From Clostridia bacterium (GTDB lineage Bacteria > Bacillota > Clostridia > Peptostreptococcales > Anaerovoracaceae), in NCBI GenBank assembly GCA_902363595.1, contig CABJAP010000002.1:1-64000 (forward strand): a stretch of 64,000 bases of DNA. The letters are read 5' to 3'. Position numbers and translations under genes: made by a program. This document shows, in pieces, positions 2,582 to 56,741 of the stretch. How positions within the stretch are numbered: position 1 is the first letter of the stretch; each line of letters begins with the position of its first letter. The notes below the pieces were generated by a model. The model saw only the letters and a list, made by a program, of their open reading frames with translations. It did not search any database and was not told the DNA's origin.

Positions 2582-3358
2582 ATGAATAGTCATTTAACTT
2601 CTAAAGACTGGAAACGCATTAACGATATTATTCTGGAGATGAATTACGAAAGTGATATTTTGAAAGCGCTCAATTTATTTCTAGTTGGGATCGATAAGAT
2701 GGTGCCATATGAAAAGGCGACAGTCTATTTTTACACGCTAACAAGGAATAAAGTGAATGTCGACACCCGAATCAGCCAGGGGTTTGACAAAAGAGATCTT
2801 GAAACATACGATGAATACTATTGTAAAATTGATGATATCGTTGAAAAAATGCTTCCTACCAAACTGACTACGGTTAGGAGCAGCGATATTTTCAACCTTA
2901 AAGAACGGAAGCAAACCGAATACTATAACGATTATATTCGGCCGGTGCGAACACATTTTTCCCTGGATTCAAATTTTAGGTGGAATAAAACGGTAAAGGA
3001 GACAAGTTTTGGTTCCCTTGACCTTTTCAGAACGGAAAAGGAGCGGGATTTTACGGATAAGGAAGTTGAAATCTGTAAAATTCTGCAGCCGCACCTTGAA
3101 ACAAAGGCTTCCCAGTATGTATTTTCATTTGTTGATTCGCTGGAAGATATTCTAAGTAAATTTTCCTTTACAAAAACGGAAAATGAAATCGCGCGCTTAA
3201 TATTACGTGGATATACAAATGAACAAATATCCAGAGAAAAATTTATCACTGTATCAACTGTAAAAAAGCATGTGACCAATATTCTGGAAAAATCCAAGTC
3301 CATTTCCAGGATTGAGTTTATATGCAAAATAAATTTTGATGGAAAGGATATATTATGA
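2582..3358 (+). CDS. LuxR family transcriptional regulator
   Basis: A 258-residue regulator. Residues 1-190 form an unrecognised sensor region of GAF-like character. Residues about 195-255 form a LuxR-type helix-turn-helix (FTKTENEIARLILRGYTNEQ, then STVKKHVTNIL). The start has a clear AAAGGAG site at 8-nt spacing. The stop overlaps the next start by 4 bases (ATGA), so it is translationally coupled to the nitrilase-family enzyme. It very likely controls the enzyme and permease that follow, perhaps by sensing their substrate. No receiver domain is visible, so this is not a classical two-component regulator. Confidence 0.87.
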   Translation: MNSHLTSKDWKRINDIILEMNYESDILKALNLFLVGIDKMVPYEKATVYFYTLTRNKVNVDTRISQGFDKRDLETYDEYYCKIDDIVEKMLPTKLTTVRSSDIFNLKERKQTEYYNDYIRPVRTHFSLDSNFRWNKTVKETSFGSLDLFRTEKERDFTDKEVEICKILQPHLETKASQYVFSFVDSLEDILSKFSFTKTENEIARLILRGYTNEQISREKFITVSTVKKHVTNILEKSKSISRIEFICKINFDGKDIL

Positions 3359-5861: not shown

Positions 5862-6821
5862 ATGAATAAGTGTAGTTTTTTGGAAACAGCAATGCAATGC
5901 GGAGTCAGCCATTCTTTTTTAAAAAGTGATTATGTATCATTTGACAATGCCAGCTTCTCGCTGGAGCAGGCCGATTACGCAGTGATCGGCGCTCCATTTG
6001 AACAATGCTGTGTTTACCGGCCGGGAAGTGGATTTGGGCCCCAATCGATTCGTATCGCATCAGAGCAGTTTTCAACCTATAATATTGAACTGGATGTGGA
6101 GATTACCGACCACTTGAAGTTGGTTGATGCAGGCGATGTTGCAGTGATTCCCGGCAATCGGGATAAAAGTTTGGAACGCATTGAGGAAGCGGTGGAACGT
6201 ATTTATCGGCATGGGACCATTCCTATTTTGCTGGGAGGGGATCATTCTGTTACTCTACCGGCGGTTAAGGGGATTTTAAAGAATTTTAACGGAAAACTGG
6301 GAGTGATTCATTTTGATACGCACCTGGATACGGGGGATGAATATGCGGGCGAGAAAATCAGCAACTGCACACAGATGCTTCGGATTTCGGAATTCGATCA
6401 AGTGGATGGATCAAATATCGTACAGATTGGAATTCGTGGATGTTTAAACCCTAAGGAAGAGTATGAGTTAGCTAAAAAAGCTGGGATTCATACAATTCTC
6501 ATCAACGAAGTTTTGAAGCGTGGAATGGATTCTGTTGTAGAAGAAGCAATTCGACTGGCGTCAGAAGGAACGGATGCTATTTATTTAACGGTTGACATCG
6601 ATGTCTTGGATCCTATTTATGCGCCAGGAACTTGTGCGCCAAGTCCGGGAGGACTGTCAATCCGCGAATTAATCGATGCAGTAAGGAAAATCGGAAAAGA
6701 AAAAGTAGTCGGATTTGACTTGGTAGAGGTGGCCCCTCAGTATGATTTGGGCGGTGTAACACAACGCTGTGCGGTAAGCACGATTCTAGAATTCTTATCC
6801 GCTTGCGCTATTGAAAAATAA
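5862..6821 (+). CDS. Agmatinase-family ureohydrolase
   Basis: A 319-residue ureohydrolase (arginase/agmatinase fold), expected to release urea from a guanidino compound using two metal ions. The metal ligands are seen in GGDHSV, in HFDTHLDT (the usual DAHxD with Thr in place of Ala) and in TVDIDVLDPIYAPG. The substrate-loop segment CVYRPGSGFGPQSIR matches agmatinase-like enzymes rather than arginases. The ATG at 5862 follows GAGGAGG; an in-frame ATG 24 bp upstream has no site. Agmatine, guanidinobutyrate or guanidine are all possible substrates. It is controlled by the palindrome at 5766 and ends at a bidirectional terminator. Confidence 0.88.
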   Translation: MNKCSFLETAMQCGVSHSFLKSDYVSFDNASFSLEQADYAVIGAPFEQCCVYRPGSGFGPQSIRIASEQFSTYNIELDVEITDHLKLVDAGDVAVIPGNRDKSLERIEEAVERIYRHGTIPILLGGDHSVTLPAVKGILKNFNGKLGVIHFDTHLDTGDEYAGEKISNCTQMLRISEFDQVDGSNIVQIGIRGCLNPKEEYELAKKAGIHTILINEVLKRGMDSVVEEAIRLASEGTDAIYLTVDIDVLDPIYAPGTCAPSPGGLSIRELIDAVRKIGKEKVVGFDLVEVAPQYDLGGVTQRCAVSTILEFLSACAIEK

Positions 6822-6843
6822 CCTTTTGAATATTACGTTTATG

Positions 6844-6891
6844 AACAACGCTGTTTCCAAATTATTTATTGGAAACAGCGTTGTTTATCGA
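6844..6891. terminator. Bidirectional terminator between ureohydrolase and TetR gene
   Basis: A perfect 17-bp stem (AACAACGCTGTTTCCAA with its complement, 8-nt loop) lies between the convergent ureohydrolase and TetR genes. It overlaps the TetR stop codon by one base. It can serve both strands, although the T tracts are short. Confidence 0.8.
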
Positions 6892-18698: not shown

Positions 18699-19199
18699 CT
18701 AGACTGCAGCTTTTTTCAGAGCCTCTTTATCGACTTTCTGTTCTTGTAGAAATTTGGACCAGTCAATTGCTGCGCCCAGATCCGTTTCCAGAATTTTGAA
18801 ATTGCGCTGGGCCTGATGATGAAGCTCTGCGGTATTTTGTCTGGAAAAATCGTTGAGCTCGTTCATGGAAACTTCCAGACCAGCAAGTCTCGATTCCAGG
18901 CTGGAAATTCTTTCGCCCATGGAAGATTCCAGGCTGGAAATTCTTTCGCCCATGGAAGATTCCAGGCTGGAAATTCTTTCGCCCATGGAAGATTCCAGAT
19001 TGGAGATTCTATTGTCCATGGAAGATTCCAGGTTGGAGATTCTCGTATCCATTGCTTCCACTTTGTTTTCCAGTAAAGTCGTTCTCTCCAACAGATTGGC
19101 AAAGCCTCTTTCCAGATTGGTGACCCGAACCTTTACTTCCTTCACCTCGTCATAGATCATCACTAGCAGTTCTTTGATTTCACGAATGTTCTGCTCCAT
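18699..19199 (-). CDS. Hendecad-repeat coiled-coil protein
   Basis: A 166-residue soluble protein predicted to be one long coiled coil. The core (about residues 50-105) is built from 11-residue repeats such as RISNLESSMDN and RISSLESSMGE, encoded by 33-bp DNA repeats. Before and after are less regular helices (VRVTNLERGFANLLERTTLL; IDWSKFLQEQKVDKEALKKA). There is no signal peptide or membrane segment. AAAGGA precedes the ATG. It resembles small coiled-coil proteins of Clostridia without known function. The plus-strand reading frames here are mirror effects of the repeats. Confidence 0.72.
   Translation of the reverse strand: MEQNIREIKELLVMIYDEVKEVKVRVTNLERGFANLLERTTLLENKVEAMDTRISNLESSMDNRISNLESSMGERISSLESSMGERISSLESSMGERISSLESRLAGLEVSMNELNDFSRQNTAELHHQAQRNFKILETDLGAAIDWSKFLQEQKVDKEALKKAAV
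18892..19056. repeat. Five tandem 33-bp coding repeats
   Basis: Units begin at 18892, 18925, 18958, 18991 and 19024 with GATTCCAG(G/A)(C/T)TGGA(A/G)ATTCT. The first three are nearly identical; the last two differ more. They encode the 11-residue repeats of the coiled-coil protein, so copy number can change without breaking the frame. Confidence 0.9.
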
Positions 19200-40940: not shown

Positions 40941-42569
40941 CTATTTCTTTTCATAAATCTTTTCGCCGTCCAGCCAGGTTTCCATGACTTTGATGTCCCG
41001 CATCCGCTGAATCTCATCCTCTTTCAGGTCCAGGGGAGACTCACTGAGTATGGCAAAGTCAGCCAGCTTTCCAACTTCGATGGAACCGGCGATATGGCTG
41101 CGTCTCAGTGCCCGGGCCGCATAAATGGTATAAGCCTTCAGGCCGTCTTCAACGGTGATCGCCTGCTCCGGACAAAGAACCGTGCCTTCATTGGTTCTTC
41201 TGGTAACCGCGGTAGAAATCGCTTCCATTGGGTTGGGCGTCGTCACCGGTGCGTCGGAAGAAATGGTGTAGAGGCTGCAATACTTTTTAAAGCGGGCCAT
41301 AGGCATAAATTCTTTGCCTTTTTCCTCCCCAATGGCGTCTACAACGCCGTCGCCGTACAAGTAGAGAAACTCCGGCTGGGTGGAAGGAATCATGCCCAGC
41401 TTGCCCATGCGGATCGCCTGCTCTTCTGTAACCAGACCCGCATGCTCGACCCGGTGGATTGCTTCCGGCCATGGATCTTCTGCCTGGGCTTTTTCGATCG
41501 CATCGATAATGGGATCGACGGCAGCATCGCCGGTGGCATGGGTCAAAGTATGAAGCCGGTTTTTATGGGCCTTAACCAAAATCTCGATCATTTCTTCCGG
41601 TTCATGGTAGTTATAGCCTTCATGGCGATCACTGTCCAGATAACCGGTGCTGACATTGGCGGTTCCCGACAGCAAAGAGGCGTCGGAATAGAACTTGATG
41701 GAGCCGATGGTCAGCCAGTTGTCCCCAAAGGTACTGTTAAAGCCCAGGGCAATTACGTCATCCAGATAATTGGAAAGGAAGGACATTTCCATACGCATCT
41801 TCAGTTTTCCCTGATCCCTTGCCCGCAGGTACGTGTTTAATTCTTGTTTTGTAAGCTGGACTTCGTTTACGGTGGTGATACCGGCCCTTACGAAAAAGTC
41901 CTGCCCCACTTCAAATCGCTGCATCAAATGGTCCGGGCTGTCAGGCATATGAATGTTGGGGCCGTGGTTTTGCGGCTGAACGCCGTCCAGACCCGATAAA
42001 AGATCGTTGGCGCTGTCAAAGAGCTGGCCGTTGGGCTTACCGTCCTTGTCACGTCCCAGCGCGCCGCCTGGAGGATCTGGAGTGTCGTCTGTCACGCCGA
42101 TGGCCCGCAGCAGCTTTGTGTTAACCACATTGCAGTGGCCGCTGGCATGCATGATCTGAACGTAGACGTCGGTAGAAACCTGGTCCAAATCTGCGGCAGT
42201 AGGGTGCCTTCTTTCTTTAAAGTTCCTCTGGTCAAAGGCATAGCCGCGGATGGCCTCGCCTGCCGGAAGGGTTTTGCCGTGCTCCTTTAAAACGCGGATC
42301 AAATCATCAATTCCTGCCACCTTGGGGTAGTCCAGATCGGCCCAAATGCGGCACATCCCAAGCATCATCGGATGAGTATGGGTATCGACAAATCCCGGCA
42401 TCATGCAGCGTCCGTTCAAGTCAACGGTCTTGCAGCCGCTTCCGGCAGCCTCTCTGCATTCGGCCAAAGTGCCGACGGCCTTGATCACATTGTCCTCCAC
42501 ATAAACCGCTTCAACTTGTTTGTTTTCTGCCATTGTGAGAATGGTTCCACCTGTAAAAATCCGTTTCAT
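40941..42569 (-). CDS. YtcJ-type amidohydrolase
   Basis: A 542-residue metal-dependent amidohydrolase of the YtcJ/N-substituted formamide deformylase group. Metal-ligand motifs are VDTHTHPMMLGM, the later His in THATGDAAVDPIID and VEHAGLV, and the Asp in TISSDAPVTTPNPMEA. Length is typical. AGGAGG lies 8 bp before the ATG. It is first in a sigma-54-driven operon with the CaiT-like transporter, so it may cleave an N-acyl or amide derivative that the transporter brings in. Exact substrate cannot be told. Confidence 0.87.
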   Translation of the reverse strand: MKRIFTGGTILTMAENKQVEAVYVEDNVIKAVGTLAECREAAGSGCKTVDLNGRCMMPGFVDTHTHPMMLGMCRIWADLDYPKVAGIDDLIRVLKEHGKTLPAGEAIRGYAFDQRNFKERRHPTAADLDQVSTDVYVQIMHASGHCNVVNTKLLRAIGVTDDTPDPPGGALGRDKDGKPNGQLFDSANDLLSGLDGVQPQNHGPNIHMPDSPDHLMQRFEVGQDFFVRAGITTVNEVQLTKQELNTYLRARDQGKLKMRMEMSFLSNYLDDVIALGFNSTFGDNWLTIGSIKFYSDASLLSGTANVSTGYLDSDRHEGYNYHEPEEMIEILVKAHKNRLHTLTHATGDAAVDPIIDAIEKAQAEDPWPEAIHRVEHAGLVTEEQAIRMGKLGMIPSTQPEFLYLYGDGVVDAIGEEKGKEFMPMARFKKYCSLYTISSDAPVTTPNPMEAISTAVTRRTNEGTVLCPEQAITVEDGLKAYTIYAARALRRSHIAGSIEVGKLADFAILSESPLDLKEDEIQRMRDIKVMETWLDGEKIYEKK

Positions 42570-42583
42570 ATAATCCTCCTTTT

Positions 42584-42674
42584 TATTACGCGGGAAATAT
42601 CATCAGCGATATTTCCGGAGTATCAACAAAGTCTACTTCTTTTAAGAAACGGCGAAGCCGACTTTGTTTTAAAG
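42584..42674 (-). repeat. Structured repeat element, copy A (leader of amidohydrolase)
   Basis: This copy is roughly 90% identical to 55034-55124 in the same orientation. Conserved parts are a 9-bp stem AACAAAGTC/GACTTTGTT (42625-42633 with 42660-42668), the hairpin CGGC-GAA-GCCG (42650-42660) and the hairpin GGAAATATC/GATATTTCC (42593-42601 with 42608-42616). It lies between the sigma-54 promoter and the ribosome site of the amidohydrolase, so it is in the mRNA leader. Confidence 0.85.
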
Positions 42675-42679
42675 AAAAA

Positions 42680-42715
42680 CGCCTTTTGCGTTTATAAAAA
42701 GCAAAAGGCGTGCCA
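42680..42715 (-). promoter_or_regulatory. Sigma-54 promoter of the amidohydrolase-BCCT operon
   Basis: Read on the minus strand, TGGCAC-GCCTT-TTGC (42715 down to 42701) is a full match to the -24/-12 consensus. Transcription would start near 42690. The -12 side is also one arm of a 10-bp inverted repeat, GCAAAAGGCG (42701-42710) with CGCCTTTTGC (42680-42689). The activator gene lies immediately upstream. Confidence 0.9.
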
Positions 42716-53547: not shown

Positions 53548-54969
53548 CTAAAGCATTGGCGTCTTATGTTTAATCTTATTGCACTTCACAAATTTTCCGT
53601 CGCCCTTCTTGCCGAGGAATTCGCCGTCTTTGTAAACCAGATTTCCTCTGCTGTAAGTGGCCACAGGATACCCTTTAACCGGTACGCCTTCCCAGATGGT
53701 ATGATCCGTGTCGCCATGCATAGCGTCATTGGTGATGGTGAAGTTTTTCTTCGGATCGTAGATTACGATATCCGCGTCCAGTCCCACCTGAAGAGCGCCT
53801 TTTTGTGTATCCAGTCCGAACAGTTTAGCCGGATTGGAAGCGCACAGTTCAACTGCTTTATTGAAGGTAATTCTGCCCTTGTTTGCCTCAGACAGAACAT
53901 AAGGATACATGTTTTCAATACCGGCGCAGCCATTAGGAATGGTGGTGAAGTTTCCTGGAGTACCGTCCTTCTGGGTGATTCCCCAGTCCTTTTCTGCCTT
54001 TGTGAACGGGCAGTGATCGGTGGCGATGGTGGAGATATCGCCTCTCTTAATTCCTTCCCACAAAGAATCCTGAGATTCTTTCCCCTTCATTGGCGGAGAG
54101 CATACGAAGTCGCGGGCGCGAAGTCCCTGTTCCGGAATGCCTTCCTTATAAACTTTGCTGGTGAAGTACAGATACTGAGGACAAGTTTCTGCAAAAATGG
54201 GATAACCCTGATCCCTGGCTTCTGTTACTGCGTCCATGCCCTGTTTGTTAGCCAAGTGAACGATATAGAGAGAAGTTCCGGCCATTTTAGCCAAATTGAT
54301 GGCTCTTACATCCGCTTCGCCTTCAACAGCCTCGTTTTTAGCCATATAATGCCACCAGGCGTCCGTTTTGCCCTCAGCCAGGTACTGGGCGATGAGAACG
54401 TTGTTGACTTCTCTGTTTTCAGCGTGCACGCCGACCAGTGCACCGATGTCTTTGGCTTTGAGCAGAGTTTTGTAGAACTGTCCGTCATCTACGCCGAAAT
54501 CATATACCATGAATACTTTAAAGGAGGTTACACCAAACTTAACGGCATCCTCCATGGAATCCAGCATTTCATCCGTTGTGACATCACCCACACCAATGTG
54601 GAACGAGTAGTCCACTGCTGCTGTTGGAGCAGCCAGATCATTTCTGCGGTTGATTGCATCCAGCATAGGCTCACCCTGCCCCTGGAGGACAAAATCGAAT
54701 ACCGTGGTCGTTCCGCCGCATGCAGCCGATCTTGTACCGGCATAATAATCGTCGGTGGAAATGGTTCCGCCGAAAGGCATGGCCAGATGAGTATGTCCGT
54801 CAATGGCGCCAGGAAGTACCAGCTTGCCTTTAGCGTCTACCACTTCCGCGCCCTTTTCCGGCTTCAAGTTTGCTCCGATTGCTGTGATTTTACCGTTTTT
54901 TACGGCCACGTCCGCTTTGAAGCTCGACTGTGCTGTTACGACGGTGCCGCCCTTGATTAATAAATCCAT
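53548..54969 (-). CDS. hydA: Dihydropyrimidinase / D-hydantoinase
   Basis: A 473-residue cyclic amidohydrolase that opens hydantoin or dihydropyrimidine rings. Metal ligands are seen in GAIDGHTHLAMPFGGT, the carboxylated Lys in SFKVFMVYDF, the His in VGVHAENREV and IVHLANKQG, and the Asp in IATDHCPFTKAEK. Length is normal. The ATG at 54969 has AAAGGAGG upstream; an in-frame start at 55017 lies within a hairpin. It is downstream of the NCS1 permease, with structured element B between. No carbamoylase follows. Confidence 0.93.
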   Translation of the reverse strand: MDLLIKGGTVVTAQSSFKADVAVKNGKITAIGANLKPEKGAEVVDAKGKLVLPGAIDGHTHLAMPFGGTISTDDYYAGTRSAACGGTTTVFDFVLQGQGEPMLDAINRRNDLAAPTAAVDYSFHIGVGDVTTDEMLDSMEDAVKFGVTSFKVFMVYDFGVDDGQFYKTLLKAKDIGALVGVHAENREVNNVLIAQYLAEGKTDAWWHYMAKNEAVEGEADVRAINLAKMAGTSLYIVHLANKQGMDAVTEARDQGYPIFAETCPQYLYFTSKVYKEGIPEQGLRARDFVCSPPMKGKESQDSLWEGIKRGDISTIATDHCPFTKAEKDWGITQKDGTPGNFTTIPNGCAGIENMYPYVLSEANKGRITFNKAVELCASNPAKLFGLDTQKGALQVGLDADIVIYDPKKNFTITNDAMHGDTDHTIWEGVPVKGYPVATYSRGNLVYKDGEFLGKKGDGKFVKCNKIKHKTPML

Positions 54970-54997
54970 AATACAACCTCCTTTTACTTGGATAAGA

Positions 54998-55027
54998 GTA
55001 GAAGCCCTTGGTTTCAAAGGCTTCTAC
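54998..55027 (-). other. Hairpin in the hydantoinase leader
   Basis: GTAGAAGCC and GGCTTCTAC form a perfect 9-bp stem with a 12-nt loop just upstream of the hydantoinase ribosome site. It lacks a T tract on the minus strand, so it is not a simple terminator. Confidence 0.6.
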
Positions 55028-55033
55028 AGTATC

Positions 55034-55124
55034 ATTATTACGTAGGAAATATCCTCAGGATATTTCCGAAGTATCAACAAAGTCTACTTCTTTAAACAAT
55101 CGGCGAAGCCGACTTTGTTCTTTA
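55034..55124 (-). repeat. Structured repeat element, copy B (before hydantoinase)
   Basis: Second copy of the element at 42584-42674. The outer stem AACAAAGTC/GACTTTGTT (55076-55084 with 55111-55119) and CGGC-GAA-GCCG hairpin are identical. The GGAAATATCC/GGATATTTCC hairpin (55045-55067) is longer by one pair with a shorter loop. It sits between the NCS1 permease stop and the hydantoinase start, on the transcribed strand of both genes. Confidence 0.85.
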
Positions 55125-55148: not shown

Positions 55149-56741
55149 TTATGCTTCTATTTTTTCGATAGTTTCAAACTCTTCATCAGAGATATTGGAA
55201 TCCTTGGCCATGCTGGTTTTCATCAGCAGTACATATACGACGAAACCAACGATGAAGGACCAAATGTAGTTGATGGAGTTGATGTAAGTAATTAATGTCC
55301 AGAAGCCATTGCTTGCAGTGGCCGGCTGGAAGTAAGTGATCAGCGGAATGATGAATGCTACGACCCAGGCGATGATAGCGGCCTTGTTAAAGCCGTTGCC
55401 ATACCAGTATCTGCCTTCTTCTCCCTTGAACAGTGCTGCGATTTCCACCTTCTTTTTCTTGCAAACGAAGTAGTCTGCGATAAAGATAGCGGCGATCGGT
55501 GAGAGGATTGTTCCGTAAGCGTTCATCCAAGTGAAGTATGCTCCGCCGGAACCATAGATCCACCAAGCCTGCAGGATGAAGAACGCGATCAGGATGGTAA
55601 CAACAACGCCCTTCTTGTAGCTGATCTTCTTCGGGTTGATGTTGGAAATTCCGTTGGCCGGCGCTACTACGTTGGCCGCTACGCAAGTGGTTACGGTAGC
55701 TGCTACTACAGCCAGAGCTGCGATAAATACGATGAGCTTGTTATCGATCCGATAGAATACGGCTGTCGGGTCGAACATGGCCTGGCCGTCAACCAGCTCA
55801 GTTGCTCTTGCAAAGAACGCACCTACGAATGCGCAGAATGCCATTGGAATCGGCATGCCGTACAGCTGGCCTCTGAACTGATCCTTCTGCGATCTTGCAT
55901 ATCTGGAAAAGTCCGGGATATTGAGAGCCATGGTCGCCCAGAAAGCGATGTTGCCCATCAGGCCTCCCAGGTAAACGAGAGCAAACCCGCCGCCCTTTTC
56001 AATCAATGCATCATTGTTCGGTGAATTCAGTACGTCGGAGAAGGAATAGCCTGCTTCTCCCGCATACATTGCGGCCCAGATCAGAAGAGCGATCATAACT
56101 GCGATGAGCAGCGGTCCGCCGATGTTCTGGACCCATTTGATCTGATCCATACCTTTATAAGCTACCCAGCCGATAAAGATGATGAAAATGATGTAACCGA
56201 TGAACTGACCGGCTACAACGGTCTCCATGCCGCCCCAGGAAGGAAGGCTCATTGTCCAGTCTTCATGGGCAAACTTGGGAATCACGCAGCCAATGATGGC
56301 CGCTACGGCACCGCCGCCTACCCAGGCCTGAACGGAAGTCCAGCCGCAGGCGGTGATCGCCCTCAGGATTGCCGGTATCTGGGCGCCTCTGCCGCCGAAG
56401 GTCAGTCTGGCAAAGAGCGGGAACGGGATACCGTATTTGGTTCCGACCTGCGAGTTCAGCTGAATCGGGATCAGAACGATGATGTTACCTAAGGCTACAT
56501 TGATGATAGAAAGCCATGGGGATACACCCATACCGATAAGTCCGGATGCCAGGGAAAGGGATGGGATACAGATCGACATACCAACCCATAACATCGAAAT
56601 GTTGTATGTAGTCCAGGTTCTCTGGGATACTGAAGTGGGAGCCAGGTCTTCATTGTAATACTTGGAAGACAATAGTTCCGCTTTGGCAGTATCCGTCAGT
56701 TCGTATAGTCCGTTGCGAACTACTTGTGTGTGCGTTGACAT
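55149..56741 (-). CDS. NCS1 family nucleobase/hydantoin permease
   Basis: A 530-residue, twelve-helix NCS1 transporter. Family signatures are VSQRTWTTYNISMLWVGMSI near the N terminus, GIPFPLFARLTFGGRGAQIP, and the substrate Trp in RAITACGWTSVQAWVGGGAV. By context with the hydantoinase it probably imports hydantoins, dihydrouracil or allantoin-like rings (Mhp1/PucI relatives). GGAGG precedes the ATG. The minus-strand sequence upstream has a TATAAT near 56800. It is the first gene of the two-gene operon. Confidence 0.92.
   Translation of the reverse strand: MSTHTQVVRNGLYELTDTAKAELLSSKYYNEDLAPTSVSQRTWTTYNISMLWVGMSICIPSLSLASGLIGMGVSPWLSIINVALGNIIVLIPIQLNSQVGTKYGIPFPLFARLTFGGRGAQIPAILRAITACGWTSVQAWVGGGAVAAIIGCVIPKFAHEDWTMSLPSWGGMETVVAGQFIGYIIFIIFIGWVAYKGMDQIKWVQNIGGPLLIAVMIALLIWAAMYAGEAGYSFSDVLNSPNNDALIEKGGGFALVYLGGLMGNIAFWATMALNIPDFSRYARSQKDQFRGQLYGMPIPMAFCAFVGAFFARATELVDGQAMFDPTAVFYRIDNKLIVFIAALAVVAATVTTCVAANVVAPANGISNINPKKISYKKGVVVTILIAFFILQAWWIYGSGGAYFTWMNAYGTILSPIAAIFIADYFVCKKKKVEIAALFKGEEGRYWYGNGFNKAAIIAWVVAFIIPLITYFQPATASNGFWTLITYINSINYIWSFIVGFVVYVLLMKTSMAKDSNISDEEFETIEKIEA

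Follow-up and report, generated by a model that had tools for sequence, protein, structure and literature searches.

Two copies of a dispersed hairpin repeat upstream of amidohydrolase-superfamily genes in a Clostridia bacterium

Introduction

Group IIC introns prefer terminators. As excerpts of the literature have it, these introns target a DNA stem-loop (PMC10190682). Among short bacterial repeats, the REP/BIME elements associated with RAYT transposases are described, in excerpts of PMC2817692, as extragenic palindromes that form mosaics and whose stems are kept by complementary mutations. In Streptococcus pneumoniae, excerpts of PMC3049150 present SPRITE as a repeat resembling Rho-independent terminators, with AAAA/TTTT ends and enrichment near gene 3' ends, and BOX as a modular short interspersed repeat; the same excerpts report that no insertion-sequence parent was found for SPRITE.

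Here, we analysed an element that occurs twice in the window, i.e. the whole 64,000-nt stretch of DNA under study, and for which a preliminary description had offered two readings, namely a novel RNA that regulates amide/amine catabolic genes in cis, or a mobile palindromic repeat. Titles and abstract openings of the open-licence literature yielded no description of this repeat, which we regard as a genuine, ordinary family of repeats.

Results

Two copies of the element in the window

A BLAST comparison within the 64-kb window revealed two copies in the same orientation with 78 of 86 positions identical (91%; E 6e-29), and a repeat finder likewise grouped copies A and B as one two-copy family. 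This agrees with the repeat of approximately 85–90 bp and about 90% identity described previously, while the bounds then given for copy A (42584–42674) were shifted to 42583–42668. The copies and the modules of copy A are as follows:

42583–42668, minus strand: copy A, 86 nt, situated in the amidohydrolase leader (BLAST; covariance model, 94.2 bits, with copy A in the model; fold z-score −4.7)
55035–55119, minus strand: copy B, 85 nt, flanked by the stop of the permease and by the intercistronic hairpin that precedes the hydantoinase (BLAST; covariance model, 96 bits, with copy B in the model; orthologous site empty)
42625–42668, minus strand: 5' module of copy A, the imperfect hairpin AACAAAGTC ... 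GACTTTGTT (fold; outer-stem covariation across genomes)
42593–42616, minus strand: 3' module of copy A, the hairpin GGAAATATC ... GATATTTCC, after which comes the end CGCGTAATAA at 42583–42592 (fold; 3' end conserved in other genomes)

The covariance model was built from 18 copies, both window copies among them. All of its further matches in the window scored below 25 bits, and the best of these (24.7 bits) lay on the opposite strand and overlapped copy A. A weak match at 6808–6885 on the minus strand (23.2 bits, E 0.0067) may represent a decayed copy or chance. Elsewhere in the window, the repeat finder detected a tandem repeat at 18859–19056 with a period of 33 nt, returned as five overlapping 66-nt matches at 33-nt spacing.

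In the minimum-energy fold, a long, imperfect hairpin with AACAAAGTC/GACTTTGTT as its closing stem is succeeded by a second, shorter hairpin, GGAAATATC/GATATTTCC, after which comes TACGTAATAA or CGCGTAATAA. Among the helices proposed in the preliminary description, AACAAAGTC/GACTTTGTT was recovered as the closure of the one long hairpin, and the CGGC-GAA-GCCG hairpin was unformed in this fold. The fold z-scores of the two window copies were −4.7 and −5.0 on the minus strand and −4.6 and −6.3 on the plus strand, and none of 200 dinucleotide shuffles performed as well in any copy/strand test. The element spans approximately 86 nt from the 5' end AACAAAGTC to the 3' end TACATAATAA; these ends are not inverted copies of each other, i.e. 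terminal inverted repeats are absent. The U-run of the window copies is interrupted (TTTGTTGATA).

Screening against Rfam 15 at the gathering score gave no match to the element, in keeping with the previous remark that no known riboswitch was recognised in it; the window returned only 5S rRNA and two tRNAs, and eight element loci returned nothing, introns included. Sub-threshold matches around copy A were weak and off-family (best E 0.23). Two further candidates were rejected, a hammerhead-like core suggested by eye by CTGATGA in the loop of copy A, where copy B has CTGAGGA, and an attC site, as the element's ends lack the motif expected of such sites.

Gene context of the window copies

The features surrounding the two copies are the following:

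42701–42715, minus strand: sigma-54 −24/−12 site TGGCAC-N5-TTGC, upstream of copy A (motif scan)
40941–42569, minus strand: amidohydrolase (Amidohydro_3), downstream of copy A (domain match)
53548–54972, minus strand: dihydropyrimidinase/D-hydantoinase, downstream of copy B (TIGR02033, 484.8 bits, cut-off 393.25)
55149–56741, minus strand: nucleobase/allantoin permease (PF02133), upstream of copy B (domain match)
54998–55027, minus strand: intercistronic hairpin GTAGAAGCC ... GGCTTCTAC, adjoining copy B (also present in orthologous loci without the element)

The distance from the end of copy A to the start of the Amidohydro_3 gene is 13 nt, and, as the preliminary description had it, the copy is positioned between the sigma-54 site and the ribosome site, that is, in the predicted leader. 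The TGGCAC-N5-TTGC motif is the sole exact match in the window, in which 0.22 matches are expected and at least one was found in 20 of 100 shuffles. A hairpin with a T-run (ACGCCTTTTGC...GCAAAAGGCGT; 42680–42715, minus strand) overlaps the −12 part of this site, and by eye the hairpin, T-run and −12 element of the orthologous locus L204 in genome G005 overlap in a similar way. Both downstream genes belong to the amidohydrolase superfamily, and since the copies lie in the sense of these genes, a leader regulator looked likely. Judging from the sequence, both copies may be transcribed as parts of the leaders.

Orthologous leaders

Protein searches of 20 genomes for the corresponding loci (E ≤ 1e-60) gave hydantoinase matches in 16 and amidohydrolase matches in three, many of them distant homologues. 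The hydantoinases of G005, G001 and G003 are 97%, 91% and 78% identical, respectively, to that of the window, and in all three genomes the upstream sequence matches the window permease and the hairpin is present. Copy B was found by eye to be absent from the window's site in each of them. When the flanks of copy B were joined, they aligned closely to G005, leaving a gap of 2 nt at the junction, and the G001 and G003 hydantoinase leaders gave no significant match to the covariance model. The permease–hydantoinase hairpin itself (window 54998–55027) has some stem bases changed in G005, G001 and G003 and may be a conserved intercistronic element.

Copy A is absent from the sole amidohydrolase orthologue of G005 (73% identical), whose leader (L204) retains the sigma-54 site (TGGCAC-GGTAA-TTGC, by eye) together with a hairpin, a T-run and a ribosome site. 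A model search of all 23 loci thus obtained gave a single match at E ≤ 0.01, a decayed copy of 34 bits in the G005 hydantoinase leader, situated at another site than copy B of the window and immediately before the ribosome site. The different place of this decayed copy is turnover, and copies A and B are not conserved regulators of their downstream genes; repeated landing in the hydantoinase leader leaves room for local co-option.

Dispersal among genomes

An exact 19-nt pattern of the 5' end, scanned over one genome per species for 84,980 species, was found in 17 stretches. Full copies were present in three MAGs, G001–G003, of Clostridia, Clostridiales and Bacillota bacteria (CAJTER, JALEQY and JAUNDC), and the remaining lone matches appeared chance-like by eye. 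Matches at E ≤ 0.01 numbered 12 in G001, 13 in G002 and 23 in G003, counts that take in incomplete matches as well as some cases of a copy matched again on its opposite strand; some contigs of these genomes break off within a copy. Centre genomes counted, model matches occurred in five of 60 genomes around G001 and nine of 81 around G003, two samples that overlap in part, and the 5' pattern, one mismatch being allowed, occurred in two of 391 genomes drawn from the class, one being the centre genome.

The 3' end, ATATTTCCTRCATAATAAAA, was matched with at most three mismatches 51 times in G013, 37 in G005, 18 in G001, 13 in G002, 15 in G003 and seven in G033, numbers that will contain some chance matches at this tolerance; reversed ATATTTCCTRCATAATAAAA, employed as a control, gave 0 to 2 matches in the same genomes. 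Plasmids searched with copy A, phages searched with copy B and viral contigs searched with two exact patterns gave no match. A cousin of the repeat was observed in G004 (WQRI, a Bacillota MAG), with 10 matches to the 5' end (loci L021, L025, L029, L033, L037, L041 and L045); in several of its copies the first hairpin possesses A6/T6 tracts and looks terminator-like.

Stem covariation

The covariation check proposed in the preliminary description gave a divided answer, negative among the closest copies and positive for the outer stem when genomes were compared. In the set of the 18 closest copies, none of 23 pairs showed two-sided change. Alignment A3 comprised these 18 and eight copies from G157, G033, G005 and G003, i.e. 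26 elements, with one of 27 matches (the opposite strand of L026) omitted. One of its 23 pairs displayed two-sided change, with six such changes in that pair. The covariation score, which relatedness can inflate, was reached by none of 500 shuffles, and the count of pairs with two-sided change was reached by 441 of 500.

The outer stem was then surveyed in 49 elements, two from the window and 47 from 13 genomes. This chosen subset of matches comprised the 26 elements of A3, 15 of a further 16 elements (L235 omitted), five of nine G013 model hits and three G004 copies. The 3' arm was anchored on the linker and not on pairing, and most starts were taken from the model, with a possible lean to pairing. 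At stem position 3, the 49 elements had C-G (30), A-U (11), G-C (5), U-A (1), U-G (1) or no pair (1), so that all four Watson-Crick pairs were seen; at position 7, they had G-C (43), G-U (3), A-U (2) or no pair (1). Position 8 was the least kept, being paired in 42 of 49. Such outer-stem covariation across genomes argues for selection on a hairpin, which, as far as these alignments go, seems to be maintained by compensatory change. The simplest reading is that the folding of the single strand is what counts, whether as RNA or as DNA in mobility, the changes being compatible with either.

Placement near gene ends and hairpins

Genes were called with a custom ORF caller in the fetched loci only (22 of G005, 18 of G001–G003 and 40 of G013, with three G013 pattern matches outside them), and tandem 3' ends were counted singly. 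Seven of the 96 ends could not be scored; 68 of the other 89 face the 3' end of the neighbouring gene (binomial p 6e-7). The gene arrangements of the 89 were −/− (52), +/− (16), +/+ (11) and −/+ (10). Both window copies, which are outside this set, are in the +/+ arrangement, so the leader arrangement of the window recurs at 11 of 89 ends elsewhere. The preliminary description had held that copies at random intergenic positions without covariation, or mostly downstream of genes, would point to a plain interspersed repeat; this is largely how the copies were found, yet the outer stem covaries across genomes.

On the opposite strand, a gene is usually followed by a foldable stretch, then by the element and the next gene. 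The 45 nt after the 3' end had a median of −11.8 kcal/mol at 94 distinct ends, compared with −7.2 in 470 control windows from the same loci, and 66% versus 29% fell below −9 kcal/mol (p 9e-13); these windows were drawn without matching to gene ends and leave targeting and tolerance unseparated. Another foldable stretch lies beside the element at 62 of 94 ends, and at least five A are found among the next eight bases at 49 of 94, such that the A-run is not universal. The association is weaker among the 26 closest copies, with a strong hairpin on the 3' side of 12 and on the 5' side of seven, relative to 18% of background windows (p 0.014 versus background and 0.08 versus the other side). Insertion tolerance near gene ends could be the cause of this placement. 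No target-site duplication was detected in 18 copies (permutation p 0.85 loose and 0.66 strict), in a test whose power is weakened by the A-rich flanks.

Mosaic loci and a second repeat

The 3' module is coupled to differing 5' hairpins in several loci. Approximately 140 nt separate the two modules of one G003 copy (L048, 1721–1943), part of the second hairpin is missing from some G005 copies, and copies are arranged head-to-tail in G013. By analogy, this mosaic make-up resembles that of BIMEs and BOX elements in kind.

A second repeat, of approximately 230–270 nt, was observed in G013, in L126 (about 2663–3216) as well as in L130, L132, L134, L145, L147 and L157. It is 75–84% alike between most of its loci and gave no Rfam match in L126, L130, L132 and L157. 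In L126, L130 and L134, a common stretch of 282–548 nt couples this second repeat to a copy of the 86-nt element. An all-versus-all DNA comparison of 40 G013 loci surrounding 3' ends, for stretches of at least 130 nt, revealed no recognisable transposon as an autonomous parent. Locus L146 of the same genome contains a 1-kb duplication.

Search for a mobilising gene

Y1 transposase (PF01797), RVT_1 and Transposase_20 were each searched in eight genomes, which returned 20 loci. Y1 matched in G001, G002, G003 and G033 and had no match in G013, G005, G041 and G004, genomes of unstated completeness. RVT_1 was present in G001–G004, fell below the cut-off in G157 and was missing from G013, G005 and G033; Transposase_20 was present in G001, G003, G005 and G157 and missing from G013, G002, G004 and G033. 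Thus, G013, the richest genome in 3' ends and also of unstated completeness, returned none of the three, and its copies might be fossils.

Neither the motif scan nor the covariance model (best match E 0.49) found the element's ends in the 20 loci. This applied to five Y1 loci, four of which end early at contig ends, to seven RVT_1 loci and to eight Transposase_20 loci, save for one 3' end with three mismatches in L229. A single, weak BLAST match of 17 nt to the element's 5' end was obtained in the G001 Y1 locus L070. Thirteen of the 18 copies of alignment A1 carry the tetranucleotide GTAG before the second hairpin, as read on the reverse strand; it is missing in copy A, L023, L027, L039 and L046.

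Discussion

The element is very probably a non-autonomous, hairpin-based interspersed repeat, presumably copied in trans, and its window copies are not conserved regulators. The mobile palindromic repeat envisaged previously accords with the many dispersed copies, the empty orthologous sites and the mixed gene orientations. Mobilisation in trans is proposed because there are no terminal inverted repeats, no target duplication and no tested mobiliser bearing the element's ends. Copying would be performed by an enzyme that reads the hairpins, in the form of single-stranded DNA or RNA, together with the 3' sequence ATATTTCCTACATAATA, and the hairpins would be joined to the A/T-rich side of a terminator, a step that is a guess since target-site duplications were not detected. 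Both window copies happen to lie in leaders, where they may alter mRNA stability or translation. Several observations weigh against this reading. The Y1, RVT_1 and Transposase_20 searches gave no mobilising gene, target-site duplications were not detected, the A-run is not universal, the hairpin association is weaker among the 26 closest copies, and one of 23 pairs in A3 shows two-sided change. Moreover, both window copies are found in leaders, one of which holds the decayed copy in G005, as co-option would predict.

A bolder version, which we put forward tentatively and consider doubtful as a whole, is that mobile DNA hairpins home to terminators, at their A/T-rich side, and that they do so with neither terminal inverted repeats nor target duplication and independently of the transposase and reverse-transcriptase types searched here. 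Selection would act on the single-stranded fold and on a 3' signature of approximately 20 nt, and each new copy would be a terminator-like hairpin that receives the next, giving rise to tandem arrays.

Among the alternatives, it is unlikely that the element is a host-maintained 3'-UTR or terminator element, SPRITE-like and of old spread, whose RNA hairpin insulates transcripts or ends transcription. Position by gene ends and compensatory changes would suit such a role, as would the first hairpins with A6/T6 tracts of many G013 and G004 copies, which resemble bidirectional terminators. However, another foldable stretch is already beside the element at 62 of 94 ends, the U-run is interrupted in the window copies, and the leader copies and head-to-tail arrays are harder to explain in this manner.

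A REP/BIME element moved by a REP-associated Y1 transposase, or an IS200/IS605 derivative, would account for the intergenic palindromes, the mosaic composites, the compensatory stem changes and the lack of terminal inverted repeats. GTAG is often found before the second hairpin on the reverse strand, and Y1 genes are present in G001, G002, G003 and G033, with the weak 17-nt match to the 5' end in L070. We nevertheless rate this explanation as rather improbable, given that Y1 had no match in G013 and G005, which have the most 3' ends, nor in G041 and G004 (completeness unstated), that the five Y1 loci lack the element's ends, and that GTAG is inconstant.

A cis-regulatory RNA of amide/amine catabolic genes, i.e. 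a riboswitch or attenuator, is very improbable. It was suggested by the position of both window copies upstream of amidohydrolase-superfamily genes, that of copy A downstream of a sigma-54 site, the decayed G005 copy immediately ahead of the ribosome site for the corresponding hydantoinase and a G157 copy (L210) seen by eye directly before a ribosome-site-like sequence. Orthologues without the element at the window's sites speak against it, as do the other copies in all four gene arrangements with 68 of 89 3' ends facing a gene 3' end, the Rfam search with no match at the gathering score and only weak off-family ones below it, and the 23 pairs of the 18 closest copies, in none of which both sides have changed. 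No support was obtained for the riboswitch reading, and the preliminary interpretation as a whole is partly supported.

A group IIC intron-like retroelement derivative that inserts beside a stem-loop can be largely discounted. It would suit the common reverse-strand order of hairpin, T-run and element and the DNA stem-loop target described in excerpts of PMC10190682, but RVT_1 is missing from G013, G005 and G033, the seven RVT_1 loci elsewhere lack the element's ends, and no Rfam intron matched in the window or in eight loci.

The reading as an interspersed repeat removes a false riboswitch candidate and puts a dispersed repeat family in its place. It also calls for caution, in that strong folding and two copies beside related genes do not amount to evidence for a regulatory RNA. 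If a hairpin really did home to terminators with no known enzyme involved, small DNA repeats would have an added way to spread.

Comparison with known systems

An IS110-type derivative finds little correspondence, with no Transposase_20 in four carriers and eight loci elsewhere devoid of the ends, save for the 3' end in L229. Group IIC introns share insertion beside a DNA stem-loop, as given in excerpts of PMC10190682, but the present element is far too short, three carriers lack RVT_1 and Rfam gave no match. With MITEs, as defined in excerpts of PMC3049150, it has in common that it is short, AT-rich, highly paired, non-coding and dispersed, with empty sites; it differs in having no terminal inverted repeats, no detectable target duplication and no parent insertion sequence that was found.

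The extragenic palindromes, mosaic composites and complementary stem changes are shared with REP/BIME elements, whereas no Y1 gene flanked by the present repeat was found, GTAG is inconstant and the hosts are clostridia-like. Unlike SPRITE and BOX, the element consists of two hairpins with a conserved 3' end and without terminal inverted repeats, often adjoins a further foldable stretch, and is missing from the corresponding sites of relatives; the likeness to these short interspersed Firmicute repeats is one of type only and not sequence-based. By analogy, it is best read as an element of REP/BIME-like or SPRITE/BOX-like kind, assigned to neither.
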